Origin: a virus
IMG/VR virus record: IMGVR_UViG_3300028581_000113
Span: 1 to 36,739 of that record
Direction: 5' to 3' (one strand)
Length of the DNA stretch: 36,739 nucleotides
Shown here: positions 3,945 through 35,400 of the stretch, piece by piece
Position numbering within the stretch: the stretch's first letter is position 1
Layout of the letters: each line of letters opens with the position of its first letter
Notes under the pieces: generated by a model
Database searches by the model: none
Told to the model about the DNA's origin: nothing
Seen by the model: the letters and a program-made list of their open reading frames with translations, nothing else
Position numbers and translations under genes: made by a program

Positions 3945-5615
3945 ATGGCTACACTAAATTTAGGTAACCCAGCTACCTTTGCTAGCAATTTAAAAGCTAA
4001 AGGAGGTTTACTGGTACCACAAAACAAACAAACGTTTTCAGGTGGTAATGTTAACACTGCACCTAGCGTTATTTTATTGGGTAACCCCCAAGACTCTGCT
4101 TCTGGGTTAAAAAACCTTTCAGCCTCTTCTTTTTTTGCTAGCCAGGTTGGGCTTCCTTTGAATGCCAAATTTGGGACTGCAGCAAAAGCGCCTGAGCAAA
4201 ACATAACAGCCCCTGCAAACACTATTTCACCAGCACAAGCTAAAGTTCCTTCTGCTCCCGCTACTCAGAAAACCTTTACAGCAGAACAAAACACAGGGCT
4301 AATGGCTGCGCTTGATCGCCAAAAGAACGGTATTGTAGACCCTACTGGTGCTGATAAACGCAACCTAGACTACGCTATCGCTAATGGTTGGAAAGCCCCA
4401 ACAACTAACTCTGGAATTTTACAAACAACTCCTCCAGTAGTTAACCAAAATTCAGCCCCCGTTATAGACACTACTTCAAAAGGGCTGCTTGGTAGTTTAG
4501 CCAACGCTTCTCTTAACCCTGATAACCAAAACGCTGCGGCTACTGCAGGGCTTATGAACACTGCTGCCAGTAATCCTGCTACATCTGCGCCAGGTTATGA
4601 GGCTTATACAAAAACACAAAAAGATTTGGCTGACTTAGATAAACAATATGCCGAACAAAAAGCTCTTTACTCAACCGCTCCGATGACTCTAGAGGTTAAG
4701 CAGGGCGCTGAACGTGCTTTAGATTTGCAATACGAAGCAAAACGTGCAGCTCTTTCAGGTTTAATGTCTAACCAACAAAAATCAATCGACCAGTATATCA
4801 CTGGAACTGGCGTCCAACAAACTGGTTATACTGGTGCTGGAAATCTTTCAAACACAGGACAAAGCCTAGAACAATCTGGATTGACTTCAGCCGCACAACT
4901 TGCTCAACCAACACAACTTCCTTATGGAACTCCTTTGGTAAACCCCCAAACAGGACAGCAAATTGGTGGTGGAACTGCTTCTGGTGTTCAACCAAGCGAC
5001 CCTTTTTACCAAACAATGAAAACTTACGCCCAGCTTTTAGCTAGCAACCAGGGTTCAACCATCCCTACTTCAATAACAGGAAACTCTGTCTTGAACGCAC
5101 AGTTGATAAATATGGCTAAACAGATAAACCCTAGCTTCAATGCCAACGTGGCTAGTGGAGTTGGCTCTGCCCAGGCGGCAACAGCAGGAGCGCAATCTGC
5201 TCAAGTTCAACAATGGACATCAGCTCTTCAACAGGGTAAAAACTTGCAAGCTCAACTTTCAGATTTACTTAACACCTTTGGGCTTAACCCAAGCGACCTA
5301 AACAAGGTGAACCAAGGACTACAAACTATCGCAACCAATATCAGTGACCCAAAATATGCTATGTTGAAGAACTATGTTAACGACATCGCAAATACTTATT
5401 CACAGATTCTTACACCTGCAGGCGGAAATGCCACTGATACAACACGTGGTATCGCTGCCAGTATGCTTGATTCTTCTATGAAAGGACAAGGTTTGCAACA
5501 GGTGATGGCTAGTATGGATGCTGCCGCACAGGCTAAAATTGCTGGTGTTTCAACTTCCGGAGGTATGAATTCGGGAGTTACCCAGGTTAATGGACAAGGT
5601 TTATATAATTGGTAA
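3945..5615 (+). CDS. Ala/Gln/Asn-rich protein, probable internal or ejection protein
   Basis: A 556-residue low-complexity protein rich in Ala, Gln, Asn, Thr and Ser with no cysteine visible. There is a helical stretch at about 215-275 (KDLADLDKQYAEQKALY, EVKQGAERALDLQYEAKRAAL) and further helices near the C-terminus (LQAQLSDLLNTFGLNPSDLNKV). This composition and the position directly before the lysozyme-like virion protein fit the internal virion proteins that podoviruses eject ahead of DNA. An alternative is a tape-measure-like or scaffold-type protein, but no long coiled coil or membrane segment is seen. The start ATG follows ATAAAATAAAAATATT with no Shine-Dalgarno. Confidence 0.45.
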   Translation: MATLNLGNPATFASNLKAKGGLLVPQNKQTFSGGNVNTAPSVILLGNPQDSASGLKNLSASSFFASQVGLPLNAKFGTAAKAPEQNITAPANTISPAQAKVPSAPATQKTFTAEQNTGLMAALDRQKNGIVDPTGADKRNLDYAIANGWKAPTTNSGILQTTPPVVNQNSAPVIDTTSKGLLGSLANASLNPDNQNAAATAGLMNTAASNPATSAPGYEAYTKTQKDLADLDKQYAEQKALYSTAPMTLEVKQGAERALDLQYEAKRAALSGLMSNQQKSIDQYITGTGVQQTGYTGAGNLSNTGQSLEQSGLTSAAQLAQPTQLPYGTPLVNPQTGQQIGGGTASGVQPSDPFYQTMKTYAQLLASNQGSTIPTSITGNSVLNAQLINMAKQINPSFNANVASGVGSAQAATAGAQSAQVQQWTSALQQGKNLQAQLSDLLNTFGLNPSDLNKVNQGLQTIATNISDPKYAMLKNYVNDIANTYSQILTPAGGNATDTTRGIAASMLDSSMKGQGLQQVMASMDAAAQAKIAGVSTSGGMNSGVTQVNGQGLYNW

Positions 5616-7467: not shown

Positions 7468-7589
7468 AATAAGCATAGAAAACTACCACCAACAAAAAAG
7501 CAGACACTGGGTTTGGAAAAAAACATACCAGTAAAACAGCGCCACCTAATACCCAATTTTTCATATAATTAAATAGTAAATTATTAGAT

Positions 7590-7618
7590 AAGAGGCTTAA
7601 TTAAAAAGCCTCTTTTTT
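7590..7618. terminator. Bidirectional intrinsic terminator between converging units
   Basis: AAGAGGCTT (7590-7598) pairs perfectly with AAGCCTCTT (7606-7614) across a 7-base loop and is followed by T's to 7618. On the minus strand the same hairpin is preceded by A's and followed by an A/T-rich stretch. It lies where the plus-strand late unit and the minus-strand early unit meet, and the stop codon of the last minus gene overlaps it. The 120 bases between 7467 and the hairpin hold no recognisable gene. Confidence 0.85.
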
Positions 7619-7829
7619 AGACCCAACCAAGAGCTGAAGAATAACCTTCAGGAAACATTTCGAAGATTTCGGTTTGTCCGATTTTAACTTCCTTTGTTTC
7701 CCGTTCTTCACCTGGCTTATCTCGGTAGATCATAATAAATTTACAAGGATGTATACTTTTTACTTCCCTGTAATAACGTGGCAACATTGCTGAATACCAC
7801 TTTTCCCCTTCGTAAACAACACTAATCAT
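7617..7829 (-). CDS. Small protein of unknown function, end of early unit
   Basis: A 70-residue protein beginning MISVVYEGEKWYSAML. I chose the ATG at 7829 because GGAGGT lies 4 bases upstream, one of very few clear Shine-Dalgarno sites in the window; an upstream in-frame start at 7871 would lack one. The protein is beta-rich with Lys/Glu-rich middle and aromatic residues (KFIMIYRDKPG, EIFEMFPEGY). I do not recognise it. It is the last gene before the convergent terminator. Confidence 0.6.
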   Translation of the reverse strand: MISVVYEGEKWYSAMLPRYYREVKSIHPCKFIMIYRDKPGEERETKEVKIGQTEIFEMFPEGYSSALGWV

Positions 7830-9369: not shown

Positions 9370-9978
9370 TTAGTTAGTGATTAGACTATTTTCTTCTTCA
9401 ATTTCAATTTTATAATCTCCTAATACATATTGTTTTTTCCAATAAGTTGAGCCAGTTTTATCGGTTATTTCTGTAATTTTCCCACTGTCGTCTCCCCCAA
9501 TAAACCAACCTAGAGTGAAAGACGCTTTTAATTCTAAGCGAGCATCGCCATAAACCCAAGCATTGCCATAGACCTGAGCATCGCCATAAACCCAAGCATT
9601 GCCAGAGACCCGAGCATTGCCATAGACCAAAGCATTGCCAGAGACCCGAGCATTGCCAGAGACCCGAGCATTGCCATAAACCCAAGCATCGTCATAAACC
9701 CAAGCATCGCCATAGACCTGAGCATTGCCAAAGACCCGAGCATTGCCATAAACCCAAGCATTGCCATAGACCTGAGCATTGCCAAAGACCTGAGCATTAC
9801 CAAAGACCCGAGCATCGCCATAAACCCAAGCATCGCCAGATTCACTTAAATTTTCTTTCTTTTCAATATAACCCCCTAACTCTCCCTTACTTACATTACC
9901 AAATGACATTTCTGCCTTAATTTGGAATAATGTAATTCCGCCCCATTCTTTTGTGTTTTTTGTGAGACTAAATTTCAT
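9370..9978 (-). CDS. GNAxVY hexapeptide-repeat protein, predicted beta-solenoid
   Basis: A 202-residue protein in three parts. Residues 1-47 form a conserved head (GGITLFQIKAEMSFGNVSKGELGGYIEK). Residues 48-149 hold 17 tandem six-residue units of the form G(N/D)AxV(Y/F/S). Residues 150-202 form a non-repeated cap with TLGWFIGG. The six-residue period with a small residue and a Val in fixed places is what left-handed beta-helix and hexapeptide-like solenoids show. Similar GNA-repeat proteins occur in phages and bacteria without an assigned role. Variation between units is mostly at one position (W, R, Q, L) and in Y/F/S, suggesting a binding face. It has no signal peptide. Confidence 0.6.
   Translation of the reverse strand: MKFSLTKNTKEWGGITLFQIKAEMSFGNVSKGELGGYIEKKENLSESGDAWVYGDARVFGNAQVFGNAQVYGNAWVYGNARVFGNAQVYGDAWVYDDAWVYGNARVSGNARVSGNALVYGNARVSGNAWVYGDAQVYGNAWVYGDARLELKASFTLGWFIGGDDSGKITEITDKTGSTYWKKQYVLGDYKIEIEEENSLITN
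9532..9837 (-). repeat. 17 tandem 18-bp coding repeats
   Basis: The DNA encoding the hexapeptide units is a near-perfect 18-bp tandem array. Because the period is a multiple of three, other frames also stay open through it and produce spurious ORFs. Slippage or unequal recombination could change the copy number. Confidence 0.85.
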
Positions 9979-10695: not shown

Positions 10696-11219
10696 TTGTC
10701 TAAAGAAGATATTTTTATTTTTAAATCTTCTATTATTAGTTTTAAATCTTCTACTGAATAACCAGGGTGTGACCAAGAATCAGCCACTAACTTATTAAAC
10801 CATTCTAATCCGTTTTCACTTATTAGCCTTTCAGCGTAAAGGTCAAGCTCACCTGAGTTGCGGTGGTTGCATTTTATACACTGGACTTTTAAATTCCTGT
10901 CATCAAAGTCTAATCTGTCGTGCTTGTAATGTCCTGCGTTTGTTTCCTTATAGTGTTTTATTTCCAGACAGGTGTAGCACTCGACATAACCGTCTAAGTT
11001 AGCGTCTTTTTTTCTAATCCATTCTGACTGTAGTGTCCAAGCCTTTGCGTGTAGTTTTTTTCTTAAACTTTTTAGGTAGCCTTTTGACTGCTCCTTTCGC
11101 TCTTTTTTTCTTGCCAACTTTTCTGTAGCCTTTTGCTTTTCACGCTCCTTGTAGTGCTTCAGACACCAAGACGTGTTAGCAAATCTTTCTTTGTCGCATA
11201 GTTTGCAAGGCTTGTTCAT
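10692..11219 (-). CDS. NinG/Rap-like recombination nuclease
   Basis: A 175-residue protein. It has an N-terminal knuckle (PCKLCDKERFANTSWC), a very basic helical linker (about 20-60) and a C-terminal HNH-like core: CYTC at 81-84, GHYKH at 96-100, RNLKVQCIKCN with Cys114 and Cys117, and then SGELDLYAERL. This order is that of NinG (Rap), which processes branched recombination intermediates in lambda-like phages. Start and stop overlap the neighbouring genes by ATGA on both sides, indicating coupled translation. Confidence 0.7.
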   Translation of the reverse strand: MNKPCKLCDKERFANTSWCLKHYKEREKQKATEKLARKKERKEQSKGYLKSLRKKLHAKAWTLQSEWIRKKDANLDGYVECYTCLEIKHYKETNAGHYKHDRLDFDDRNLKVQCIKCNHRNSGELDLYAERLISENGLEWFNKLVADSWSHPGYSVEDLKLIIEDLKIKISSLDK

Positions 11220-13566: not shown

Positions 13567-13689
13567 TTATTCTTCATCTTCATCGAACTCCATCTCAAAA
13601 TCACAGTGTTCTTTGCAGTCAGGACATATACCCATACCCCTCACCACTTCACTTCCTACCGCACCGCAACAATTAGAAAAGTAATTCAT
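13567..13689 (-). CDS. Small zinc-ribbon protein, acidic tail
   Basis: A 40-residue protein with CC at residues 7-8 and CPDCKEHC near 22-29, then an acidic tail (EMEFDEDEE). The CCGA...GICPDCKEHC pattern recurs in tiny phage and bacterial ribbon proteins of unknown role. AATTATATG start context. Confidence 0.5.
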   Translation of the reverse strand: MNYFSNCCGAVGSEVVRGMGICPDCKEHCDFEMEFDEDEE

Positions 13690-13693
13690 ATAA

Positions 13694-13888
13694 TTAATCT
13701 TCGATATCAGAAGCCATTGACTCTTGATAATCTAGCTTGTTATTTTCTTCTAAAAGTTCTTGGGTTTCTTGTTCTTCTAGTTTTGTGTATTCACTCCACT
13801 GGGCGGTTGTGCCAATATAATCATCATTTCCTTCAAAGTCTTTTCCTGAATAAATAAGTCCTGCTTGTTGTGCCAATTCCTTGTTCAT
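13694..13888 (-). CDS. Acidic small protein
   Basis: A 64-residue protein (MNKELAQQAGLIYSGKDFEG) with a strongly acidic, Glu/Gln-rich C-terminal helix. It is preceded by an AAAACTATG-type start. Acidic early phage proteins can mimic DNA, but nothing in the sequence proves this here. Function unknown. Confidence 0.45.
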   Translation of the reverse strand: MNKELAQQAGLIYSGKDFEGNDDYIGTTAQWSEYTKLEEQETQELLEENNKLDYQESMASDIED

Positions 13889-13916
13889 AGTTTTGTTAGC
13901 GCCGTTAGCGCTGTAA

Positions 13917-14036
13917 TTAATTTTTAGGGTAAAGTGTTTCTAATGTAATAAGTGAACCAACGCTTATTTTGCTTCTTTCTTTTTTATCTTCGCCTATGTT
14001 CTTGTCGGCGTCGAATAAGTCTTTAAATTGATACAT
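13917..14036 (-). CDS. Small protein downstream of structured RNA
   Basis: A 39-residue ORF (MYQFKDLFDADKNIGED, ending TLETLYPKN), first after the structured element at 14077-14153 and the promoter candidate at 14172-14200. The AAAACTATG start context matches its neighbours. Not recognised. Confidence 0.4.
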   Translation of the reverse strand: MYQFKDLFDADKNIGEDKKERSKISVGSLITLETLYPKN

Positions 14037-14076
14037 AGTTTTAGTCGTTAGCTAATTTATAAATTTTGTTAGAACC

Positions 14077-14153
14077 GCCCCCAGGGCTTACGGGTTACTT
14101 GTTGTGTTTTTGCCTATTGGCTTAAACCGTCTTTCGTCGTAAGTCTCAGGGGC
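14077..14153 (-). ncRNA. Structured RNA element in 231-base gap
   Basis: On the minus strand nested complementary arms fold one extended hairpin: GCCCC/GGGGC (14149-14153 with 14077-14081), CTTACG/CGTAAG (14138-14143 with 14087-14092), GGTT/AACC (14125-14128 with 14093-14096) and GCC/GGC with a 4-base loop (14119-14121 with 14112-14114). It follows a promoter-like sequence by about 20 bases and precedes a small gene. It is the only G+C-rich patch in an A/T-rich gap. It has CUGAGA in an internal loop, as TPP riboswitches do, but lacks the other TPP motifs. Known family: none recognised. Confidence 0.5.
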
Positions 14154-14171
14154 TGTGTTCTTTACTCTTAA

Positions 14172-14200
14172 ATACTACCACCATTTTATTTTTAAAACAA
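14172..14200 (-). promoter_or_regulatory. Sigma70-like promoter candidate
   Basis: TTGTTT (14195-14200) and TAGTAT (14172-14177) lie 17 bases apart on the minus strand. The -35 box is identical to that of the promoter at 17203. It would start a transcript just upstream of the hairpin at 14077-14153. Confidence 0.4.
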
Positions 14201-14238
14201 GGGTGTTTATTTAACTAATTATAGCTAAAATTTAGGGC

Positions 14239-14247
14239 TGTGGATAA
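14239..14247 (-). promoter_or_regulatory. DnaA-box-like 9-mer
   Basis: TTATCCACA on the minus strand exactly matches the strong DnaA box and lies in an A/T-rich intergenic gap. A single copy in a window of this size can arise by chance. Confidence 0.3.
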
Positions 14248-14267
14248 ACTATTTTATTTTTTAAAGA

Positions 14268-14699
14268 TTATTCTCCTTTTTCAGCCACCCTTTTTAGGTA
14301 AGTTCTTAGCCCTGCTTCTTTTCTTTTATCAGCTGGCAAGTTGTTTGCTTCCCTAAAAATCTTTTCCATTTCTTTTAAGCACCTAATGCAGTATATTTTT
14401 TCTTTATTAGATGAGTAGTATCTCTTTCCGCACCGCAGGCAAGTGCCTACCATAAAAATACTCCTATTGTCTTGCCCGTTGTAGTGGTGCAAAGCCCACC
14501 CAGTCTTAGAGCAAATAATGTTGTGGGTAATGCACTTTTGATTGAAACAGTGTTCTTCATTGCACTCCCTTCTTTTTTCACCATTAATTCCATAATGGTA
14601 ATTTTCTATTGTTGTTAATTCACAGCCCTTATCAGGTGAGTGAAAGTGTTCGTTATCCAGGCAATCAATAAAATTGTCTGATTGAAATTGTCTAAACAT
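14268..14699 (-). CDS. Cysteine/histidine-rich zinc-binding protein
   Basis: A 143-residue protein with 12 cysteines. The N-terminal half has CELTT...CNEEHCFNQKC and CSKTGWALHHYNG; the C-terminal half has a clear ribbon, TCLRCGKRYY...IYCIRCL, then a basic helix. Two zinc sites are likely. The role is unknown; position after the methyltransferase suggests DNA metabolism or regulation. The A/T-rich gap following it holds the promoter and RNA candidates. Confidence 0.5.
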   Translation of the reverse strand: MFRQFQSDNFIDCLDNEHFHSPDKGCELTTIENYHYGINGEKRRECNEEHCFNQKCITHNIICSKTGWALHHYNGQDNRSIFMVGTCLRCGKRYYSSNKEKIYCIRCLKEMEKIFREANNLPADKRKEAGLRTYLKRVAEKGE

Positions 14700-14738
14700 A
14701 AGCCGACAAGCTAATTATGTTAATTAAATTGTTAATTA

Positions 14739-15722
14739 TTACCACTCACAGAAACATTCCTCACAACAAATTTTACCTTTTTTTTCACCAGTCATTTTAA
14801 AGACAAACTTGCTACCGCAATCAGGACATATCTTTGTTTTTTCGTATCCAGTGGTTATTTTTTGTCTTAGTTTTTCATCAATATCACCGCTCTTTTTAAA
14901 ACATAAAATATTTTGATGAACCTTTACTAATTTTTTACTGGCAAAAGTGTTATTAGCCCTAATCATTGCTGTTCCTATAGGGTCAAGCAAGATAGCTTCA
15001 TTATAAAGTTTAGCGCCAGCTTCTATAAAGGCTTTTTTGGTGTCGCTAATAAAGTCATAATAATAGCCATCTACTCCCCTGACATCTCCCACGACAAACA
15101 CCGCAAAGCCCCCGTCGTTAAGTTTTAACACCGCTTTCGCTATAATGGAGCGATATAGGAGTAAAAACTCGTCATAGGGCTTATTTGAAAGGTCAGCCTT
15201 GTCGTCTGAATACACCTCTAGGTCTGCATAAGGTGGACAACTAAACACAAAATCATATTTGTCGTTTATTGTATCAAGAACTTTGTTGCTATCTCCGCAA
15301 ATCCAAACTGGTTCTTTGCCTGGGCAAATTTCATTGCCTTGCTCAACATTACTTTCAACTTGCTCGGCACGTAGTTCAATGCCTGTATAGTCATAACCCA
15401 TTTTGCTAGCCACTATGCCACGAACACTTCCGCCAGCGAATGGGTCTAGTATTTTACCACCAGCAGGGGCAAACCAGGTATAAAGAAGTTCACACAAAGC
15501 TGGGTCAAACACACTAACCCCAGTTTCCATTGACGGCATATAATCAGAATCAGTCTTGCCAATAAGGCAAGTTGCATCTCTGCCTAACTCACTTTTAATA
15601 CCTAACTCTTTCCATTTGTTTTTCCTTGCTTTCCATAAGCCAGTTTTAGCGTCAATAACGCTGAATGGTGGCTCGATATAACGACTTCTTAGCGCTCCGT
15701 TTGATTGTTCTAACATTTCCAT
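14739..15722 (-). CDS. DNA methyltransferase with C-terminal zinc ribbon
   Basis: A 327-residue protein. PPFSVIDAKTGLWKARKNKWKELGI at about 18-42 is the usual opening of phage DNA methylases. DPFAGG at 93-98 is the SAM-binding motif I, and SCPPY at 161-165 is motif IV of amino-methyltransferases (N6-adenine or N4-cytosine). Motif I precedes motif IV. Residues about 298-325 add a zinc ribbon (CPDCGS...CCEEC), probably for DNA binding. No restriction partner is adjacent, so it is likely an orphan enzyme protecting phage DNA or marking it. The AAAACTATG start context is clear. Confidence 0.75.
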   Translation of the reverse strand: MEMLEQSNGALRSRYIEPPFSVIDAKTGLWKARKNKWKELGIKSELGRDATCLIGKTDSDYMPSMETGVSVFDPALCELLYTWFAPAGGKILDPFAGGSVRGIVASKMGYDYTGIELRAEQVESNVEQGNEICPGKEPVWICGDSNKVLDTINDKYDFVFSCPPYADLEVYSDDKADLSNKPYDEFLLLYRSIIAKAVLKLNDGGFAVFVVGDVRGVDGYYYDFISDTKKAFIEAGAKLYNEAILLDPIGTAMIRANNTFASKKLVKVHQNILCFKKSGDIDEKLRQKITTGYEKTKICPDCGSKFVFKMTGEKKGKICCEECFCEW

Positions 15723-17759: not shown

Positions 17760-17999
17760 ATGTTTTTATACGGTTTTTTTTGTGGCTTTGCCCTTTGTTT
17801 ATTTATTTGTTGGTTAGCACTTGAAGTAGTCAAGATGATTTTTAATAAATATGGCAAACTCGTGGTGAGTAGTGCCGACAAAGTTATTAGTAAAATGGCT
17901 GATGTAAGCGTAAATGGTGCTGAAATAATTTACGAAGACCAGTCAAAAGAAATATTTAAAAGTGAAGGCACAAGTATTGATGACCTTCTAAAAAATTAA
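17760..17999 (+). CDS. Membrane-anchored small protein upstream of chaperonin
   Basis: A 79-residue protein. Residues 1-27 (MFLYGFFCGFALCLFICWLA) form one strong membrane span, followed by a soluble part (KYGKLVVSSADKVISKMADVSVNGAEIIYEDQSKEIFKSEG) that looks alpha/beta. It ends 11 bases before the chaperonin start. It is not recognised; its conserved position beside the chaperonin genes, if confirmed in relatives, would suggest a related job. Confidence 0.5.
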   Translation: MFLYGFFCGFALCLFICWLALEVVKMIFNKYGKLVVSSADKVISKMADVSVNGAEIIYEDQSKEIFKSEGTSIDDLLKN

Positions 18000-18010
18000 A
18001 AGAACCAATT

Positions 18011-19525
18011 ATGTCAAAAGAACTATCCTTCGGTAAAACGGCTATGGATAAAGTCCTAGTCGGTCTATACAAAACAGCTGATGCCGTTACTGGCACCCTC
18101 GGACCAAGAGGGAAAAACGTAATGATTGAAGATTCTATCCTTCCGCACATCACAAATGACGGAAGCACTATTGCAGAATCTATTTCGTTCCCAGACAAGT
18201 ATGAAAATTTAGGTGCCTGGGTTGTTAAAAACACCTGCTCACAAACCAATGAAGATGTTGGCGACGGAACAACCACAACTGCTGTGCTATTAAAGGAAAT
18301 TATCAGATTATCGTTAACCAGACCTGAAAGCCCAATGGTTATTAAAAACAGCTTGAAGAACGCTTGCGATGTTATGGTTGAAAACTTAAAAGATATGTCC
18401 ACCCCAATTACAATGGACGATATTAAAAAAGTTGCCCTTATTTCATCTGAAAGTGAAGAAATTGCCAATATTGTATGCGATGTATTTCAAAAAGTAGGGG
18501 AAAAGGGAACAATTGTAGTTGAAGAATCAAAGACCTTTGAAACCAGCACCGATGTTCAAGAGGGCTACGAGTGTAATAATGGCTTTGTAAACGCTTTCTT
18601 TTCAAATGATGGTATTGGCGCAGTTGCCACCTATGAGAATATTCCAGTTCTTTGTTCAGCCAAAAAGATTTCAACAGTAATGGACGTAAAACCTTTATTT
18701 GAACAATTAGACAATAGTCAAATTGGTGAAATAGTAGTTGTTGCCGCAGACTTTGACGCCACCATTTTGGGGGTATTTGCTAACACAAAAGCTCGTGGTG
18801 GTTGCAACATCTTGCCTATTAAAGTGGTGGGAACCCAATTAGAAGATATTTGTGCCACAGTTGGTGCCACGATGATTAGTGATGAAACAGGCGTGCAATT
18901 TAAAAACTTAAATGTGAAAGAACACCTAGGAAGCGCTGACAAAGTTGTCGCTAACAGTAAGAAATCATTATTTATTGCTAAGACAGCGTCAGGGCAAGAG
19001 CTTGCTAACCGACTAAAAGAACAGGCTGAAGTGTGTGAAAACTTATTTGAAAAGGCTGAAATTAAAAAGCGTATTGCTAAACTTACTGGAGGGATTGCTG
19101 TTATTAAAATTGGCGGCACAACCGACTTAGATAGAGTTTACAAAAAACACAAGACTGATGACACGGTAGCGGCGGTAAAAGCAGCGCTAGAAGAAGGAAT
19201 TGTTGAGGGTGGTGGTATGGCTCTTTGGAGAACAGCACAAGATATGCAACCAATGACAGTTGGTGAAATTATATTAAAAGAAGCACTAACAGCACCATTG
19301 AGAACTATCTGTGAAAATGCTGACAAGAAGTATGAGGAGGTTGTTATAAAAATGCCAGCAGGTATGGGCTATAACGCCAAAGATGATATTTACTGCAAAA
19401 TGATTGAATCAGAAATAATTGACCCTACTAAAGTTGAAAGGGTTAGTCTAGAGAACGCCGTCAGTAATTCAAGTGTATTTATCACGACCCATTGTGTAGT
19501 CGTTGATGCTAAAATTGAAAAATAA
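18011..19525 (+). CDS. groEL: Phage-encoded group I chaperonin (GroEL homologue)
   Basis: A 504-residue protein that aligns along nearly its full length with GroEL (548 residues in E. coli). The ATPase residues are kept: LGPRGKNVMIE at 30-40, ITNDGSTIAESI with Asp50 (E. coli Asp52), GDGTTTT at 84-90 with Asp85 (Asp87), and DDTVAAVKAALEEGIVEGGG with Asp384 (Asp398). The apical domain keeps aromatic groove residues (GFVNAFFSN; Phe192, Phe196, Phe197 for Tyr199, Tyr203, Phe204), but Lys227 stands where E. coli has Leu234, and the segment matching PGFGDRRK is missing. The C-terminal GGM tail is absent (ends DAKIEK). Expected role: folding of phage proteins, probably capsid or tail subunits, in the infected cell. 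The co-chaperonin gene follows one base later. Confidence 0.95.
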   Translation: MSKELSFGKTAMDKVLVGLYKTADAVTGTLGPRGKNVMIEDSILPHITNDGSTIAESISFPDKYENLGAWVVKNTCSQTNEDVGDGTTTTAVLLKEIIRLSLTRPESPMVIKNSLKNACDVMVENLKDMSTPITMDDIKKVALISSESEEIANIVCDVFQKVGEKGTIVVEESKTFETSTDVQEGYECNNGFVNAFFSNDGIGAVATYENIPVLCSAKKISTVMDVKPLFEQLDNSQIGEIVVVAADFDATILGVFANTKARGGCNILPIKVVGTQLEDICATVGATMISDETGVQFKNLNVKEHLGSADKVVANSKKSLFIAKTASGQELANRLKEQAEVCENLFEKAEIKKRIAKLTGGIAVIKIGGTTDLDRVYKKHKTDDTVAAVKAALEEGIVEGGGMALWRTAQDMQPMTVGEIILKEALTAPLRTICENADKKYEEVVIKMPAGMGYNAKDDIYCKMIESEIIDPTKVERVSLENAVSNSSVFITTHCVVVDAKIEK

Positions 19526-19526
19526 T

Positions 19527-19784
19527 ATGAATATTAAACCTATTGGAAATAAATTACAGATTTCCATTGAAAAACCAACGGCTGGTAAATTAGACCTTTC
19601 CTCTCTATCTGCAGCAACAGAGTATGGTAAAATAATAGCACTAGGAGAAAACGTGAAAGGGTTTAATATTGGTGATATGATTTTCTTCAAGGCGTGGGCT
19701 ACAGACATTATTGGTTATGAGGGAGAACAGTATTACTTTATAAACTCAGACAGTGAAGGTATATGCGCTATTGTGACGGAATAA
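19527..19784 (+). CDS. groES: Phage-encoded co-chaperonin (GroES homologue)
   Basis: An 85-residue protein; GroES has about 97. It opens MNIKPIGNKLQISIEKPTAGKLDLSS and continues EYGKIIALGENVKGFNIGDMIFF...TDIIGYEGEQYYFINSDSEGICAIV, the beta-barrel pattern of GroES (G-K-V-hydrophobic-G, GD-V-F, tail with ILAIV). The mobile loop that carries the GroEL-binding Ile-Val-Leu in E. coli is short and reads GKLDLSS here, so docking to the chaperonin may differ. I start at 19527 because the homology begins there; an in-frame ATG at 19503 lies inside the chaperonin gene. Only one base separates the two genes, so they are co-expressed. Confidence 0.85.
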   Translation: MNIKPIGNKLQISIEKPTAGKLDLSSLSAATEYGKIIALGENVKGFNIGDMIFFKAWATDIIGYEGEQYYFINSDSEGICAIVTE

Positions 19785-19996
19785 ACTTCGCTCACGACAA
19801 CTTAACCACTAATGAAACAGAAGATGGAATTAGGGTTGTGTGTCGTGAATGCAAGCAAGTAAACATACTACGCAAGGAAAGGGAAACTGGAAGATTTAAC
19901 AACAGAGATTATTCAAAAATATTTAAAAGAGATATCGTGCAGCCAGGGAGCAATCTTTATTACAAGTATTACCCCTCGGCTATGAACATTATATAA
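19763..19996 (+). CDS. Small zinc-finger phage protein
   Basis: A 77-residue protein with YCDG at the start (Cys4), CRECKQ at about 28-33 and an ending GSNLYYKYYPSAMNII. The pattern CDGxNFAHDNL...VVCRECKQ...YSKIFKRD is one I associate with conserved small phage proteins placed before terminase genes. It overlaps the co-chaperonin stop by 22 bases in another frame. Function unknown; zinc binding is likely. Confidence 0.55.
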   Translation: MRYCDGINFAHDNLTTNETEDGIRVVCRECKQVNILRKERETGRFNNRDYSKIFKRDIVQPGSNLYYKYYPSAMNII

Positions 19997-20451: not shown

Positions 20452-20937
20452 ATGGCAGAAGCAGGAAGACCAACAGACTTAACAGACGAACTATTTGCTG
20501 AAATCAAAAAGTCTATTATGGACGGTAACGACCTAAGAGAAACAGCTAGGGTTTGCAAAATATCTGAAAGCACTTTATATCATTGGCATTGCGATAATTA
20601 TGCAAATATTACTGATAAGATTGAAGGCTGGAAGAGAGATAGGAAGCTTTTGTTAGCAGATAAAAACATTGATGGAATACTATGCTTAGGTATCAGTGAC
20701 AAAGACAGTTTAAAGGTAGTAGCTGATATGTCTAAGTTTGTCAAAGAAACATTAGACAAAGAGAACTATAGCAAGCGGACAGAAAACACAGGCAAAGATG
20801 GAGCACCTTTGTTTAATAGCATTACTCCAGAAGATATAGCCCTTGCAAAGAAACTAAGTGAAATGGAAGATGATAACAGCAGAACAAATAAACAAAGCGA
20901 GGGAGGCTTTACCGAGCTTATGGATAAAGAAGTATAA
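20452..20937 (+). CDS. terS: Terminase small subunit
   Basis: A 161-residue protein. MAEAGRPTDLTDELFAEIKKSIMDGNDLRETARVCKISESTLYHW is the typical opening helix-turn-helix of phage small terminases (AGRPT...ETA...C.IS.STLY.W). The rest is helical and highly charged, as expected for oligomerisation and contact with the large subunit. The ATG at 20452 begins at the conserved AGRPT motif; the frame extends upstream into the tRNA-like element without a better start. It binds the packaging site and delivers DNA to the motor. The end overlaps the large terminase gene by about 70-80 bases. Confidence 0.75.
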   Translation: MAEAGRPTDLTDELFAEIKKSIMDGNDLRETARVCKISESTLYHWHCDNYANITDKIEGWKRDRKLLLADKNIDGILCLGISDKDSLKVVADMSKFVKETLDKENYSKRTENTGKDGAPLFNSITPEDIALAKKLSEMEDDNSRTNKQSEGGFTELMDKEV

Positions 20938-22438
20938 TATTAAAAATGAAGCTGGTATCCCTTTAGAGTTCGTCCATAGGAAGTTTTTAAAAGACATTAT
21001 AGACGACCTAAGCCCTTTGCAAGTTATATTAAAAGCCCCACAGATTGGAATGACTGTATCACAGATTATTAAAAGCCTTTATGTAGCAATGAAGTATAAG
21101 AAGGATATCATTTACACCTTACCTACTGCAGGCGACGTAACTGATATGGCTGGTGGAAAGATAAACCGCATTGTAGCCCAGAACCCTGTGTTACAAGGCT
21201 GGGTGAAAGACCACGACACCGTAGAGCAAAAGAGCGTGGGCGAGAACATTATTCATTATAGAGGAAGTTACACAACCAAGTCAGCTATGATGGTGTCATC
21301 TGACTTAAATATCCACGATGAGGTCGACGCCTCTGACCCTAGTGTTATTGAACAATACGAAACTAGACTACAAGCTAAGAAGGACGGATGGCGCTGGTAT
21401 TTTTCCCACCCTAGTTCAGTTGACTACGGTGTAGATAAGCAATGGCAGTTAAGCGACCAAAAGCATTGGTTTATTACTTGCCCACACTGTAATAAAGAAC
21501 AATATCTAAGCTTTCCTGAAAACATTGACACCACTAAAAGAGTTTATATTTGTAAGCACTGCAAGTGCGAGTTAAAAGATGAGGACAGAGAGAACGGGCG
21601 TTGGATACCTAAATACAGTAAAGCTTGGCAGGAAAAGAATGGAATAGACAAACCCTTTTCAGGTTACTGGGTGCCACAACTAATTTGTAGCTGGATAAGC
21701 GCCGACAAGATATTAAAAGACTATGCGGAAAAAAGCTCAGAATACTTCTACAACTATGTTCTTGGCTTACCCTATGCTGGTGGAGACTCTAAACTTACCC
21801 AACAGCAACTATTTCAAAACCTATCTGGAAAAGGCGCCGCACCTGAATCAAATGAAAGAGTAATAATGGGTGTTGATACAGGATTAAAGTTAGACTATGT
21901 ATTAGGCAACAACAGGCTAGGATTATTCTATCAAGGTGACGCACAGAACTACGACGAACTAGACAAATTGATGACACGCTGGAATAAAATGGTTGTAGTA
22001 ATGGACGCTGGTGGCGATTTAATAGGTTCAAGACAGTTTTACGAGAGATGGGCAGGGAGAGTTACCCTTTGCTACTTCACGGGTGAAAGAAAAGACAACG
22101 ACATTTACACCTGGGGCGAAGGCGATAAGCTAGGACAAGCCAGCGTAGACCGAGAACGTGGAATACAATGGGTAGTAGATGAGTTTAGAAACAAACGCTT
22201 GCCTTTACAAGGGACTGAGTCTGATTGGTATGAATACTTCCTTGACTGGCAAAACCTATCACGCATTAAGATATTTGATAATAAAACAAACCAAGTTAGA
22301 GGGATTAAGTGGGTGCGTAATGGACGTGACCACAGAGCTCTAGCCACTGTCCTTTGGAGAATTGGTGCCGATAAGTTCAAAGACGGGGAATCACAAATAA
22401 TTTACCCAGGCAACGATTTCGCTAGCCAGGGTTACTAA
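20858..22438 (+). CDS. terL: Terminase large subunit, GpA type
   Basis: A 526-residue packaging ATPase/nuclease. The N-terminal half has a Walker A-like KAPQIGMT at 59-66, a coupling region and a Walker B-like LNIHDEVD at 150-157. A zinc finger characteristic of the GpA class follows (CPHC at 208-211, CKHC at 232-235). The C-terminal nuclease has MGVDTG at 337-342, VVMDAGGD and a final DHRALATVLWRIGADKF. Starts at 20858 or 20870 are possible; both lie inside the small subunit gene, an overlap long enough to imply coupled translation. It pumps DNA into the prohead through the portal encoded next. Confidence 0.85.
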   Translation: MKWKMITAEQINKAREALPSLWIKKYNIKNEAGIPLEFVHRKFLKDIIDDLSPLQVILKAPQIGMTVSQIIKSLYVAMKYKKDIIYTLPTAGDVTDMAGGKINRIVAQNPVLQGWVKDHDTVEQKSVGENIIHYRGSYTTKSAMMVSSDLNIHDEVDASDPSVIEQYETRLQAKKDGWRWYFSHPSSVDYGVDKQWQLSDQKHWFITCPHCNKEQYLSFPENIDTTKRVYICKHCKCELKDEDRENGRWIPKYSKAWQEKNGIDKPFSGYWVPQLICSWISADKILKDYAEKSSEYFYNYVLGLPYAGGDSKLTQQQLFQNLSGKGAAPESNERVIMGVDTGLKLDYVLGNNRLGLFYQGDAQNYDELDKLMTRWNKMVVVMDAGGDLIGSRQFYERWAGRVTLCYFTGERKDNDIYTWGEGDKLGQASVDRERGIQWVVDEFRNKRLPLQGTESDWYEYFLDWQNLSRIKIFDNKTNQVRGIKWVRNGRDHRALATVLWRIGADKFKDGESQIIYPGNDFASQGY

Positions 22439-22441
22439 GAT

Positions 22442-24334
22442 ATGGAAGACAATACGATTCAAGGTGGAGCAATATTCAACGCAGTCAAACAGGCTGAGGG
22501 TCTTTTTTCTAACGTTAACAAAGCTAAAAGCAGTGATGGTTTAGTAGCTGAAGACGTAAAAGACGAATATACTTCCAGTTTTACTGACGAGCAGGTAACA
22601 ACGCTTGTCACCGCCTGGAAAAAGGACTACGACACCTATTACCCTGACATTAAAAAGGTACAAGAAAAGTCAACCCAATATTGGTTAGGCAAGCAAAAGG
22701 TTGATATGGTTGACACCATTGAGGGCAAGGACACTGTAGTCAATAAGCTGTTCGAAGCTATTGAAACCTTTTTGCCTATTGCTACCCGTTCAAATCCGGA
22801 GCCATTAGTTAGTTCTGACAATACTGATGAGGGTCAAACCCTAGCCAAAGAACTAAAGGAGGTTTTAGCCTACCAAGCTGATACCCAAAAGCTACGCAGA
22901 AAACTAGCTAAAATGACTCGCCAATGGATGATTTATCTTATTGGAGCCATAGAGGTGGAATACGACAGCGAAGTTGATGACATAAAAACAAGTGTAATCA
23001 ATCCGCAGAGGTTTACCTTTGACAAGGACGGTTACATTGATGAATCTGGTTTCTTTATTGGTGAATACTTTGGCATTGACTGCAAAATGACTGCATCAAA
23101 GCTTGCTGTTATGTTTCCTAAGCACAAAGGCTACATTATGAACGCAGCAGGCGGTAAGGGTGGAACAAAAATTACTTATACAAAATGGTGGTATAGAAAC
23201 ACAGAAGTATTCTTTACACTAGGAACAAAGAAGTGTCTCGGAAAGTTTAAAAACCCACACTGGAACTACGACGGTGAAGAACAAAGGACTGACGCAGAAA
23301 CAGGGCAGACAATGGTTGAACAAGTTATTGGGCGCAACCACTTACTTAAACCTACGGCGCCTTACGTCTTTCTTTCTATCTTTAGCTTAGGCAAGCAACC
23401 ACACGACGAAACTTCTTTAGTACTACAGAATATCCCACAACAGGATAATATCAATAAAAGATACAGACAGCTCGACCGAAACATTGACGGACAAAACAAC
23501 GGCATAATCGTAGACGGCAGAATAATGACCCAAGAGCAAGCGGCTGAAGCTGCAGGTGCTAAACGTAGAGGTGCTGCTATTCGTGTAATGGGTGATGTAA
23601 ATACTGCAATCAAGTTTGACGGTCCACCACAACTGCCTTCAGATGTTTGGGAGTCAGTCAACAAGTCTGAACAGAACTTAGCCAACATCTTTGGCACATC
23701 AGGATCAACCCCATCGGGCATTAAAAGTGAAGAATCAGCCAGGGGCAAGATAATGATTTCCCAAATGGACGCCAGCCGTATTGGCGGAGGAATCACTGAA
23801 TACATTGAGCAAGCAGCTGACACAGTTTACAATCTATGGGTGCAAATGATGTATGTTCACTACGACACCGAGCATTACTTTAATATCTTAGGGTCAGAGG
23901 AGGGCAACGAGTTAGTTAGCCTTTATAACGGCAGATTTAACAAAAGCATAACTGTAACCGTAAAGGAAGGCTCATTGATACCTAAAGACCCATTGACTCA
24001 ACGTAATGAAGCAGTAGACCTTTGGAGCCAGAACGCTATTGACCCATTGACCTTATACAAGAAGCTTGACTTCCCAGACCCAACCGCAGCAACTGAAGCT
24101 CTTATCAAGTGGCAAATGCTAGGCAAAGGAATGATTGAGCCTCAAATGTATTTACCAAGCTTTCGGATACAAGCCCCACAAGCCCCGTTACCAGGCGAAC
24201 AACCAGGAACAGGCGGTCCGGCGGTAAACCCAATGACAGGTCAAGAAGCCCCAATTCCAGCCCCCGACGCACCGTCTAATGAAGCTGGTGCAGTTCAATC
24301 AAAACAACTATTACAAAGCGTTCCCCTACAATAG
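22442..24334 (+). CDS. Portal protein
   Basis: A 630-residue protein directly after the large terminase. The central part matches portal sequences: RKLAKMTRQWMIYLIGAIEVEYD, NPQRFTFDKDGY, QQDNINKRYRQLDRNIDGQ, PSGIKSEESARGKIM and EYIEQAADTVYNLW. The C-terminal 60 residues are Pro/Gly-rich and disordered. Portals form the dodecameric ring at the capsid vertex through which DNA enters and to which the adaptor attaches. The start is 3 bases after the terminase stop. Confidence 0.85.
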   Translation: MEDNTIQGGAIFNAVKQAEGLFSNVNKAKSSDGLVAEDVKDEYTSSFTDEQVTTLVTAWKKDYDTYYPDIKKVQEKSTQYWLGKQKVDMVDTIEGKDTVVNKLFEAIETFLPIATRSNPEPLVSSDNTDEGQTLAKELKEVLAYQADTQKLRRKLAKMTRQWMIYLIGAIEVEYDSEVDDIKTSVINPQRFTFDKDGYIDESGFFIGEYFGIDCKMTASKLAVMFPKHKGYIMNAAGGKGGTKITYTKWWYRNTEVFFTLGTKKCLGKFKNPHWNYDGEEQRTDAETGQTMVEQVIGRNHLLKPTAPYVFLSIFSLGKQPHDETSLVLQNIPQQDNINKRYRQLDRNIDGQNNGIIVDGRIMTQEQAAEAAGAKRRGAAIRVMGDVNTAIKFDGPPQLPSDVWESVNKSEQNLANIFGTSGSTPSGIKSEESARGKIMISQMDASRIGGGITEYIEQAADTVYNLWVQMMYVHYDTEHYFNILGSEEGNELVSLYNGRFNKSITVTVKEGSLIPKDPLTQRNEAVDLWSQNAIDPLTLYKKLDFPDPTAATEALIKWQMLGKGMIEPQMYLPSFRIQAPQAPLPGEQPGTGGPAVNPMTGQEAPIPAPDAPSNEAGAVQSKQLLQSVPLQ

Positions 24335-25066: not shown

Positions 25067-25855
25067 ATGTTTGAAATACCACAAGAAGAAATCGACAAAA
25101 TCGATAATGGTTCATCTGAAGGAATTTTCCCTGTCGACGCTGACGAGGAAGAAGAAACAGATGAATCCGATGAAGTCACGCAAGAAGAAGTAAAGGAACA
25201 GGTTTCTGCGCCTACCGATGAAGACGCTGTAGCCGATAAGGCACGAGTCCCTTACTCACGCTTTGAAACTGTCAACGAAGCTAGAATACGAGCCGAAGAG
25301 CGGTTAGCAATTCTAGAATCACAAAGTGAAGCAAAGAAGTCTGACGGCAACAAGGAAACGACGGATGATTTGAAAGATTGGTTAGAGCTATGGGGAGATT
25401 CAGAAGAATCACGCCAAGCCTACGAAATCGACCAACGCCGTCAACAGAGAGCCTATGAGGAATCTCGTAACCGTTTATTAGAAGATATTGAAAATCACCA
25501 AAATCAGAAACAGCAAGAAGTAGAAGACAACCTGAACTACATACAGGAAGGCTTAGACAACTTTCAGGAAAAGCTTGGTAGGAAACTAAGCGAAACGGAG
25601 GAATCCGCTGTTCTAGATATTCAGGATGAATTTACCGCTAAGGACGACAAGGGCAATTATATTGCACCACTGATGTCCACTGACAAGGCATTTGAGATTT
25701 ATACCCTAAGAAACCAAAATGCTAAGGTTGAAAAAAACCAAGCACGAAGACGAGTTGTTTCCATCACAGGTTCATCTAGCGAGAGCGAAGGAGTAAACGA
25801 CGCTTTTGCAAACTATAACCCTAGCGTAGGGGGATTATGGGAGAGTAAACTTTAA
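25067..25855 (+). CDS. Scaffold protein
   Basis: A 262-residue protein just before the capsid gene. The N-terminal 65 residues are highly acidic (DADEEEETDESDEVTQEEVKEQ), the middle is a long Gln/Glu-rich helix with coiled-coil character (about 85-190), and the C-terminal is basic and polar, the usual build of phage scaffolds whose C-terminus contacts the shell. No protease motif is seen within it, so removal or cleavage would need another enzyme. Confidence 0.7.
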   Translation: MFEIPQEEIDKIDNGSSEGIFPVDADEEEETDESDEVTQEEVKEQVSAPTDEDAVADKARVPYSRFETVNEARIRAEERLAILESQSEAKKSDGNKETTDDLKDWLELWGDSEESRQAYEIDQRRQQRAYEESRNRLLEDIENHQNQKQQEVEDNLNYIQEGLDNFQEKLGRKLSETEESAVLDIQDEFTAKDDKGNYIAPLMSTDKAFEIYTLRNQNAKVEKNQARRRVVSITGSSSESEGVNDAFANYNPSVGGLWESKL

Positions 25856-25875: not shown

Positions 25876-26910
25876 ATGGCTTATAATAACCAGGTTGACA
25901 CCTTAACTTTGGAATACATTGCTCCAAGAGTTGTCGACACAGTTTTACGTAGCAACCTCTTAACCACAGAATTGCTTGCTAAGACAAAAGAATTCAAAGC
26001 AGCTACAATTGATTTCCCATTGAAATACAAAAAAGGAACAGCTACACAATCCTTCAGCGGATTTGATGCTCTTGCTACTTCTTTCACTGATACTCGTGTT
26101 GTTGCTAAATACAACCCTCGCTTTAATGCTGCTAACGTCGCTTTGGCTGTTACAGATATTGCTGCGAACAACACTGCTGCTAAAGTTTTATCTTTGACAG
26201 AAGTTGAAATGATGTCCAGAGCCCAGGACTTAGCCGATTCTATTGGTGTCCAGTTCTATGCTGACGGCACAGGCAACGCAAACAAAGATTTCATCGGTTT
26301 GGCTAACATCGTTGATGATACATCAGCTATTGGCGGTCTTTCCCGTTCCACTTACACAACTTTGCAGTCCACAAATACTGCTTCTGGTGGTGCCTTATCT
26401 CTTTATAAGATGAGAACACTTTCAAACGCTATTTCTGATGCTTCTGTTGCTCCTACAAAATGCTATACAGATTACACTGTTTGGGCTTTGTATGAAACTT
26501 TGCTTCAACCACAAGAGAAGATTATGAAAGAAGTAAACGTTGCACCTAACTTCAAAGGCTACACTGGCTTTGACGCTTTAGCATTCGCAGGTCTTCCAGT
26601 AATGGCTGATCGTAAATGCACATCAGGTGTTATGTTTATGCTTAACACTGACTTCTTGAACTTCCACGGTTTACCAACATTTGGTGGCTCTGAAGATTCA
26701 GGCGGTTTCGCTGGTAAACCTGTAAAGGTTGGTGGCAAATTATTTGCTGGTAACTCTTACAGCGATGCTTCTAACTTAGGCTTCTTCTGGACTGGCTGGA
26801 TTAAATCAACCAACCAATTAGCTTACAACTCTTTCATCGTAATGGGTGGTAACTTGGTAACTGATAACCCACGTCGTCACGGTAAATTGACTGGTATCAC
26901 TGGCGTTTAA
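25876..26910 (+). CDS. Major capsid protein, HK97-fold type
   Basis: A 344-residue protein after the scaffold. It begins MAYNNQVDTLTLEYIAPRVVDTVLRSNLLTTELL and has the strand/helix pattern of HK97-type capsid proteins (TIDFPLKY, then a helix with VALSLTEVEMMSRAQDLADSIGVQFYADGT in the spine region, then GFDALAFAGLPVMADRKC). Its codons are richer in C- and T-ending choices than neighbouring genes, consistent with high expression. The start has no Shine-Dalgarno (ACCTACAATTATT before ATG). It is the most probable client of the phage chaperonin, an inference from position and biology only. Confidence 0.75.
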   Translation: MAYNNQVDTLTLEYIAPRVVDTVLRSNLLTTELLAKTKEFKAATIDFPLKYKKGTATQSFSGFDALATSFTDTRVVAKYNPRFNAANVALAVTDIAANNTAAKVLSLTEVEMMSRAQDLADSIGVQFYADGTGNANKDFIGLANIVDDTSAIGGLSRSTYTTLQSTNTASGGALSLYKMRTLSNAISDASVAPTKCYTDYTVWALYETLLQPQEKIMKEVNVAPNFKGYTGFDALAFAGLPVMADRKCTSGVMFMLNTDFLNFHGLPTFGGSEDSGGFAGKPVKVGGKLFAGNSYSDASNLGFFWTGWIKSTNQLAYNSFIVMGGNLVTDNPRRHGKLTGITGV

Positions 26911-32180: not shown

Positions 32181-32417
32181 ATGTCAGCAGTTCAAGCAGG
32201 TTTAAATACAACAGATGTATCGGGACTAGCCACAGAGGAAACCGCACAAGCTATTGCTGGACTAGTTACCGAGCCATATAACACTGTCGAGGTGCAATAT
32301 ACAGACGAAACAAAAGAAGTAATAAGTTCAGTAGTTTATAAAATGGGTGCAACAGTTGTAGCCACAATCACTGCCACATACCCAACCACATCTAAAGAAA
32401 TTTATACTACATTATAA
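32181..32417 (+). CDS. Small protein before the large fibre gene
   Basis: A 78-residue protein (MSAVQAGLNTTDVSGLATEETAQA) ending in a beta part (VEVQYTDETKEVISSVVYKMGATVVATITATYPTTSKEIYTTL). Its stop TAA overlaps the next ATG by one base (TAATG). Possibly a fibre-base or assembly protein; not recognised. Confidence 0.45.
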   Translation: MSAVQAGLNTTDVSGLATEETAQAIAGLVTEPYNTVEVQYTDETKEVISSVVYKMGATVVATITATYPTTSKEIYTTL

Positions 32418-35400
32418 TGCCTTTTAAATGGAACCCCACAACTCAAAAATTTGACTTAGTAAGAGGAATAAACCCTCTAAGAGCTGGTGCTGTTCAATTT
32501 GATACAGCCCACACTCCTCTCAGCTCCGCCCCTGGTCTTATTCAGTGGAATCAAGCTGATGGAACTTATGATATGGGGCTTTTGAATAGCTCTGTTCTTC
32601 AGGTTGGGCAAGAGATGATGTTCTTTGGCAAGGCTCAAGGAGCAATTGCTAACGGAGATGTTTGCGAATTTGCTGGTGTTCAAGGGGACCACATCCTAAT
32701 TAAAAAGGCAGTAGGCTCTGAAATAGAAACTAACCCTCATTATTTAGTCGGTGTAGCCACTGAAAATATTGCTAATGGAGCTTTTGGTTATGTTACTTGG
32801 TTCGGTAAAGTAAATGATATTTATACTAAAACACCTGCCAACCAAGACAGTGCCAACTGGCTAGCTGGTGATATTCTTTACTTCAACAATGTAACAGGGC
32901 AGATGACTAAAACAATGCCATCTGTTCCTAATCGTATTATAACAGTTGCTGCTGTCATTAAAGAACAAACAGGAGCTAGTGAGAACGGTAAAATTATTGT
33001 TCGTCCAACTATCGGAACTAAACTTCAGGACTTGGATGATGTAAACGGAACTCCGCTAACTACTTCTGGTCAAATACCAGTATGGAATAATACAGGAAAA
33101 TATTTTGATTTTACTTCAAATATTTTAACTGACTACGTTCCATATCGTGAAGCAACTGCTGATGTTAACTTAGGCTCTTATAGTCTTTTTGCTAATACTA
33201 CAGGGGCTAAGTTTAGTCAGTTCGGACCAGACCCAATATCTACAACATTAACCGATGCTGTAGACGGTTTAATGTCAATAAAACAGTCATCTGCCACATC
33301 AGGAACTATTAGAGGTTTAACTGGCGTCGGAGAATTTACTGGTGCTTTAGCTTCCATCTCTAGCATAGGTGGAGTAGATGGTCTTGCTTATACAACAGCC
33401 GCATCTTCAGGAAATTTAACCGCAACTACTAGTGGTGGAGGTCTTAGAAATAGATATATCGCAGGTCATTATGGGGCAGGATTATTAACCCAAGCGAGTG
33501 CTGTTTCAGGCGGAATTACAAATTCAACAACTGGTGGAAATATTACAGACGCAGCGTCATTCCACGCAGAAAGCCCAACAGTAAAATCAGGCTCAACTTG
33601 GGGTTCTCATTCTGGTCTTTGGGTTAGAGGTGGCTCTATATCAGGTACTATTACTAATAGATACGGTTTGAGGGTAGATACTCTAACAGGCGGAACAAAT
33701 AAATATGGTGTTTATGTTCAGTCAGATAATTCTTATTTCGGTGGTAATGTTGGGATTGGAACAACGAATCCAGTCTCAATATTGGATATAAAAAGTCCAA
33801 TTACTCCAATTCTAACTTTATCATCTGGCTCTGCCACCATTCTTGCAGGTAATATTGTTTCATCAATCGATACTTATATACCAAATGAGGGCTCTGGAAT
33901 AACAAACAGAATAATATCTTCAATCCAATCTATCGCTGATGTTAATTATGAGGGAACTCAAGCTCCTACGTCATTAGCTTTCCTAACTCAGTCAGCGGGA
34001 GGTGTTGCAGTTAGCGAAAAAGTAAGAATTAATGCCAGTGGCAACGTTGGGATTGGAACAACTGCCCCAGCCTATAGTTTAGACGTTAAAGGATTAACTG
34101 CCACATCAGGTATTCGAGCTGACGTTGGTTTTGATATAAACCCAGTTGCTACACCTGGAGCGTTTACTGGAACAGTTTCATCAGGCGGAGCAGTTGATAC
34201 TGGACTTCATTATTACTACATAACTTACTACACAGCAGTCGGAGAAACAGCTATCAGCATTGTAACTGGTGGAAGTGTAACAACAACCTCAGGAAATAAT
34301 ACCGTTACTCTTACACTACCAGTTTCAACTGATTATCGAGTTGTTGGAAGAAAAATTTACAGAAGTAAGGTTGGTTCAGGCACAGAATATTTTCTTGCAA
34401 CTATCGCAAATAATGTTGGTGTTTCTTATGTTGATACAGCGGCAGATTCAACTTTAACAACTGGAGCTGGAACTGCTGCTAGCAGAGAAAACACAACTTC
34501 AAAATATCTTACGTTAAGAGGAACTCCTTTGATGCTCGCTGGTTCCAACACAACTTATTTAGGGGTCAATTCTCTTATATCTCAAACAACTGGATCATAT
34601 AACACTGGGTTTGGTGCTTCTGTTATGACTCACGTTACTACTGGAACCAATAACGTTGGTATTGGTTATTCAATAATGTTGAATGGTAACGGTTCTCAAA
34701 ACGTTGGGATCGGACCATATGCTTTAAGGTCTGGCGTTGCCAATACTAATAGTTATAATGTCGGAATTGGTGTTTGTTCTCTTTTTGACTTAGCTGTAAA
34801 TAACCCTGGTAACACTGCGGTTGGTAATTATTCAGGTAGAGGTGCTCAAGGAAGTAATAATATTTTCTTTGGTAACTATGCTGGTTTTCAAACATCTAAT
34901 CGAACAGTAGGAGCGCAAAATATTGCCATTGGTTATTACGCAGGAAGAGTTCTCGGAACTGGTGCAAATAACATCTTAATCGGCAACCAAGTAGAATTAG
35001 CAAGTCCAACAACATCAGATCAATTAAACTTAGGAAATGTTATTTATGCCACTGGACTAGCGACTGGCTCAACTCCTAGTGCCACAAGTAAGGTCGGTAT
35101 TGGAACTTCAACCCCTGATTCCACACTTCAAGTAGTAGGAGATGCTAGATTTGGTGAAGATACAGCTAGCTATTCCGAGTTTGAGTCAGACGGAACTTTA
35201 ATCTTGCACGGAGCAGCTACCACTTACGAAGATTTAACTAGCCCCGCTCTTGCTTTAAAGGTTAAAGGAACTGGTATTGAAGTCAATGATTCTGAGAACA
35301 CAATGGATTTTCAAGCCACGGCTGATTACTCTGACGACTATCTCTATACCAACTTTCAGATGTCGCATACAAAGGAGATGGATACTCGTATTAATCTCCA

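Follow-up and report, generated by a model that had tools for sequence, protein, structure and literature searches.

The window analysed here, 36,739 bases long, is an entire IMG/VR record and encodes on its plus strand a GroEL-type group I chaperonin of 504 aa (18011–19525) followed by a GroES-type co-chaperonin of 85 aa in which the roof hairpin is missing (19527–19784). The GroEL assignment is based on Pfam, PHROG and PDB matches, on the ATPase residues and on an AlphaFold model. The protein matches Pfam Cpn60_TCP1 at 5.8e-36 (124.7 bits, against a cut-off of 34.3), and its residues 2–501 match PHROG groEL at 1.3e-105. In E. coli numbering, which is used for GroEL residue positions throughout, all residues of the ATP site are kept (T30, D52, D87, T89–T91, I150, S151, D398, G415 and D495), in agreement with the intact ATPase site described in the first-pass annotation of this DNA. 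D87 and D398 are present in every member of the window's GroEL group in our alignment, and K51 is replaced by Asn, as it is in Firmicutes references. The AlphaFold model (pLDDT 89.4) superimposes on solved GroELs over the whole chain (TM 0.85–0.87, Z 39–44), with predicted equatorial, intermediate and apical domains and no predicted built-in lid. The description of the chaperonin as full-length holds in that almost the entire chain is matched, but the 548-aa enterobacterial GroEL exceeds it by 44 aa, and the window protein has deletions near residues 102–108, 280–285 and 424–434 and is missing the GGM tail.

GroELs of the window's group are without residues near 102–108, the apical FGDRR segment, some ten residues near 424–434 and the Gly-Met tail. 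Most of them have Arg in place of A109, V464 is acidic (V464E in the window), and R197, of the R197–E386 ion pair, is Asn, Ser or Val. As some of the altered positions lie within the classical ring-ring interface, the protein may form a single ring or join its rings through a different interface. Positions 452 and 461 vary in functional double-ring GroELs too, so altered ring joining can be proposed but not read directly from these changes. The deletion or replacement of canonical contact residues hints that the rings may meet through a different interface.

The ATG of the GroES gene, at 19527, lies one base past the GroEL stop, as had been noted. The assignment of this gene combines a PHROG groES match (3.4e-5), a sub-threshold Pfam match and an AlphaFold model. 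Against the curated Pfam Cpn10 cut-off of 21.1 bits, the window protein scores 17.2 and its counterparts in two related contigs 20.2 (L002) and 20.4 (L098); a syntenic homologue in L096 reaches 29.9 bits, and those of G055 and G057 are also over the cut-off. A tblastn search with GroES against phage records returned zero matches. The top structural matches to the model (pLDDT 84.8) are cpn10 chains and T4 gp31, with Z up to 10.4, and gp31 gives the best query TM-score (0.77) among the solved structures listed. Residues 19–24 are predicted to be disordered, and coincide with the site of the mobile loop, as expected of a lid.

The sequence of this loop is altered. In nine of ten group GroES proteins G-x-[LF]-D-[LVT]-S replaces the hydrophobic triplet of E. 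coli (Ile-Val-Leu), such that two hydrophobic-type positions flank an Asp; the window has Leu-Asp. The mobile-loop triplet varies among functional lids, and is typical of them without being strictly defining. With an Asp in mid-triplet, binding to the phage GroEL is not assured; confidence in the fold is not lowered by this change. A compensatory salt bridge between a Lys at GroEL position 234 and the loop Asp was considered and rejected: the window, L002 and G057 fit it, but L098 has Glu, and G053, G055 and G059 have Ala or Ser.

Two small plus-strand ORFs flank the pair. A 79-aa ORF with an N-terminal membrane helix lies directly upstream of GroEL (17760–17999; positional homologues in L002 and L098), and a 77-aa cysteine-containing ORF overlaps the end of GroES (19763–19996; conserved in L002, L098, L095, G055 and G057). 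A family search with these two ORFs gave zero family matches; conserved beside the pair, with their membrane helix and cysteine pairs, they could be components of the chaperonin system. The genes for packaging and head follow on the same strand. These are a terminase small subunit (20452–20937; PHROG 1.1e-5), a terminase large subunit of GpA type (20858–22438; Pfam 7e-17, PHROG 8.4e-81), a P22-type portal protein (22442–24334; Pfam 1.1e-12, PHROG 1.1e-18), a probable scaffold (25067–25855), assigned from its position and composition, which G055 and G057 also have between their portal and capsid genes, and the major capsid protein (MCP) of 344 aa and 37 kDa (25876–26910; PHROG major head protein 1.6e-42 and a family alignment). 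A very large tail protein of 1109 aa is encoded at 32417–35746. End repeats were sought in the 36,739-base record and none were found; relatives join the window's last genes to its first, and the window therefore looks like a near-complete, circularly permuted genome with the pair internal to it. Elsewhere in the window, a minus-strand ORF of 202 aa (9370–9978) contains an 18-bp tandem repeat (9487–9882) with hexapeptides of YGNAxV type, likely a beta-helix; in its early region L002 carries a repeat ORF of another kind, rich in Ala and Ser (4617–5252).

The order GroEL–GroES–small ORF–TerL–portal–scaffold–MCP is shared by L002, L098 (as far as TerL), G055 and G057, with GroELs 44–65% identical to that of the window. 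L002 (GroEL 65% identical) and L098 (53%) both have the same upstream membrane ORF and downstream cysteine ORF, and then the terminase; L098 also retains the one-base gap between GroEL and GroES. In L002 an extra 116-aa ORF lies between the two genes (10696–11046). G055 (38,250 bp) and G057 (40,370 bp, of which 40,000 were read) have the same order and run on into homologues of the window's left-end genes, and in the related contigs L100 and L101 GroEL alone is found just upstream of TerS–TerL–portal–MCP. The recurrence of the same order and flanks in independent contigs indicates that the pair belongs to the phage and is not a product of chimeric assembly. Taken with the ORFs, the family matches and the AlphaFold folds, it upholds the initial view that GroEL and GroES are both real, intact and owned by the phage.

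Gene order differs by capsid group. Genomes with capsids like that of the window (at least 58% identity) have GroEL–GroES, and those with capsids 36–45% identical have GroES–GroEL. In L152, a 38-kb record, GroEL (13653–15227) and the capsid gene are on opposite strands, an arrangement shared with the TM7 phage discussed below. A GroES match was not found in L152, and this branch seems to be rearranged.

The distribution of the pair was followed through the capsid, for which an alignment search gave 47 related viral contigs. GroEL is present in eight and GroES in seven of the nine such records that are at least 30 kb long. Where a record extends 9 kb or more upstream of the capsid, or is at least 30 kb long, GroEL is present in 13 of 19 cases, and short records with less than 7 kb upstream of the capsid have it in 0 of 18. 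Within the nearest capsid group, GroEL is found in every record reaching far enough upstream (G001, G053, G054, G055, G057, G059 and G060). Besides the two complete phages described below, seven IMG/VR records of 31–46 kb share the capsid family and carry both genes. Overall, the window's GroEL has a match in 260 of 50,697 phage records, a count that includes some bacterial sequence. Two records of the phage collection, AFYI01000007 and AGRM01000005 (organism Salmonella), are bacterial contigs of 0.5 Mb, and matches to Listeria and Enterococcus 'phage' GroELs were set aside as probable bacterial sequence.

Across 15 genomes the GroEL and MCP distance matrices correlate with r 0.93 (0 of 5000 permutations as high), and r is still 0.93 in the nine genomes outside the window's group. 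GroEL evolves faster than the capsid. The correlation shows that the two genes have been inherited jointly; it does not follow that their products interact, since core genes of one lineage would behave in this way whichever two were compared. Nor is the capsid family strictly dependent on the pair. GroEL is missing between the early genes and TerS in L125, a GroES-like gene accompanies a related capsid in L140 (record G077, 7529–7738) with no GroEL match on the 18.9 kb contig, and G093, which has the most distant capsid, has neither gene. L140 could represent a lid-only (gp31-like) relative, or a fragment.

Among the sequences compared, no GroEL from outside the window's own group exceeds about 38% identity to that of the window, which points to an old phage lineage. 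A tree of 73 rows unites the window with L002 and L098 (100/100), and this clade neighbours other viral contigs, although with few cellular references and long branches the deep placement is weak. Recent capture from a host was rejected on the basis of this low outside identity and of the clade's placement with other viral contigs. The first-pass annotation had named, as evidence against a phage pair, a position of both genes inside one bacterial genus with host-like flanks; no such position was found, the clade lying beside viral contigs. A scan of genome contigs for GroEL recovered only a partial Pelagibacteraceae GroEL, at 35%. A GroEL with a nearby GroES also occurs on a 44-kb viral contig (L041, 3001–4578), where a TGA stands at a conserved glycine, as in code 25 of Gracilibacteria/Absconditabacteria. 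On the evidence of gene order and sequence divergence, the pair has long been inherited within the head-building block of a whole group of 37–46 kb phages and is not a one-off capture.

Searches of phage records gave only two full-length matches for the capsid and only two for the portal, and these come from the same two phages, DolZOral124_53_65 and MW202566. The TM7 phage DolZOral124_53_65 (MG269973, 38,840 bp, complete) has a related capsid (31%) and portal (27%) and encodes a Cpn60 (CQ476_27) that is only 21% identical to the window's GroEL. The Cpn60 is preceded by a 100-aa ORF that is GroES-like by eye and has no Pfam family match. Caudoviricetes sp. cthkR962 (MW202566, 38,956 bp, complete) has a related capsid and portal, with the pair upstream of terminase and portal in the order GroES–GroEL. 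Its GroES-like gene is a sub-threshold Pfam Cpn10 match, and its GroEL, 31% identical to that of the window, keeps the canonical apical loop.

More distant systems offer further points of comparison. Flavobacterium elemoviruses, podoviruses of 59–61 kb, have adjacent GroEL and GroES in the same order as the window, but the GroEL is about 30% identical and the pair does not lie beside the terminase gene. In Cellulophaga phage phi38:1 and its relatives, Cpn10 and GroEL are one gene apart among replication genes in a 72 kb genome, and 36 phi38:1-like environmental genomes carry GroEL (PMC5332604). The giant phages EL, OBP and AR9 encode group I-like chaperonins, those of EL and AR9 being about 25% identical to the window's GroEL. 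T4 gp31 and the window GroES are both without roof loops (PMC6318259 for gp31), but gp31 works with the host GroEL, and its mobile loop is longer whereas that of the window GroES is shorter.

These comparisons bear on the earlier suggestion that a full pair is uncommon in so small a genome. The pair is real in 36,739 bases, but MW202566 and the seven 31–46 kb relatives carry both genes as well, and the complete phages of about 39 kb, the capsid relatives of 31–46 kb, the elemoviruses (60 kb) and phi38:1 (72 kb) together weaken the case for its being unusual in small phages. That some phages have both GroEL and GroES is also on record (PMC7185714, introduction). The lineage itself appears to be the new element, with its small genomes, its pair in the head block, and its altered lid and ring. 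A non-exhaustive literature search found no earlier description of this combination, nor any of chaperonins in phages of TM7 or other CPR bacteria.

Signals of the host disagree. Saccharibacteria (TM7) are the host of the nearest phage for which one is named, and the kinship of capsid and portal would point to them, but the start-codon context in the window is of another kind. Shine-Dalgarno sites occur at 5 of 45 gene starts against 2.6 in shuffles, which is no enrichment, while A is found at −6 in 37 and T at −1 in 38 of the 45 starts. This pattern recalls Bacteroidota (PMC6847099), which is suggestive and not proof. The start context of L002 is like that of the window, whereas L146, L147, the TM7 phage and MW202566 use Shine-Dalgarno sites (the last two mostly). 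A host switch within the lineage is possible.

It seems probable, at roughly 0.6, that the pair is a group I chaperonin dedicated to the phage, with a lid to match, produced along with the packaging and head proteins, and that the folding of head proteins is its most likely task. This reading draws on the fixed place of the pair in the head block and on the analogy with T4, in which gp31 and the host GroEL fold the capsid protein gp23 (PMC6318259). In the proposed mechanism, the GroEL ring would bind a newly made, aggregation-prone head protein, with the 37-kDa capsid protein as the first candidate client and the portal and scaffold as others. Once ATP is bound, the phage GroES would dock by means of its mobile loop; folding would take place inside, and the client would then be released to assemble. 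We infer a partnership between GroEL and GroES, a client among the head proteins, and independence of the phage from the host GroEL and GroES. The position of the pair and its co-inheritance with the capsid, both taken from sequence, would lend indirect support to capsid folding in particular.

A fuller version of head-protein folding can be offered tentatively. Here a 37–46 kb lineage, kin to the TM7 phage by capsid and portal, would possess a self-contained head-folding machine with a single or unusually joined ring, a roofless lid and a different docking motif, as a core part of the head operon. A counterpoint to any head-protein client comes from the phage chaperonins that have been studied, since those of EL, OBP and AR9 reportedly have endolysin as their substrate and function without a lid (PMC9598537, PMC7185714). 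A working phage chaperonin whose main client lies outside the head is thus conceivable, if rather unlikely, and the endolysin, the 1109-aa tail protein or early replication proteins could fill this role; the window does encode that very large tail protein, but in the close relatives examined the pair heads the packaging-head block and is not beside lysis or tail genes.

Chaperonins have broad clients, and the pair might accordingly act as an auxiliary gene set that keeps host proteins folded during infection or stress. Head-gene synteny, co-diversification with the capsid and the limit of about 38% on outside identity argue for a dedicated role, and render host support improbable. It is more improbable still that the two products form no closed pair, with GroES acting on the host GroEL like T4 gp31 (PMC6318259) or GroEL serving as an open, lid-independent ring. 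The window GroEL has lost contact residues and R197, the OBP chaperonin is said to lack the R197–E386 ion pair too (PMC9598537), and L140 has a GroES without a GroEL on its contig. Against this, the genes are adjacent or nearly so and both are retained across the window's group, fitting a matched pair. Assembly chimera or bacterial contamination has a negligible probability: although the record is a metagenomic contig and some GroEL 'phage' records are bacterial (AFYI01000007 among them), it is ruled out by the independent syntenic contigs, the GC of the GroEL gene equals that of the genome (39%), and a near-identical bacterial GroEL was sought and none was found.

What leads some phages to encode a chaperonin of their own is an open question, and one that has been studied mostly in giant phages, whose chaperonins are reportedly active without a lid. 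With a barrel, a roofless lid and a capsid gene that travel together in a small, conserved lineage, the dedicated head-folding pair proposed here would provide a compact system for identifying the phage protein that requires a private chaperonin. It also allows one to ask whether a barrel without the usual ring-ring contacts works with a lid. Our results further caution that phage GroEL genes should not be equated with recent captures or taken as markers of large genomes.
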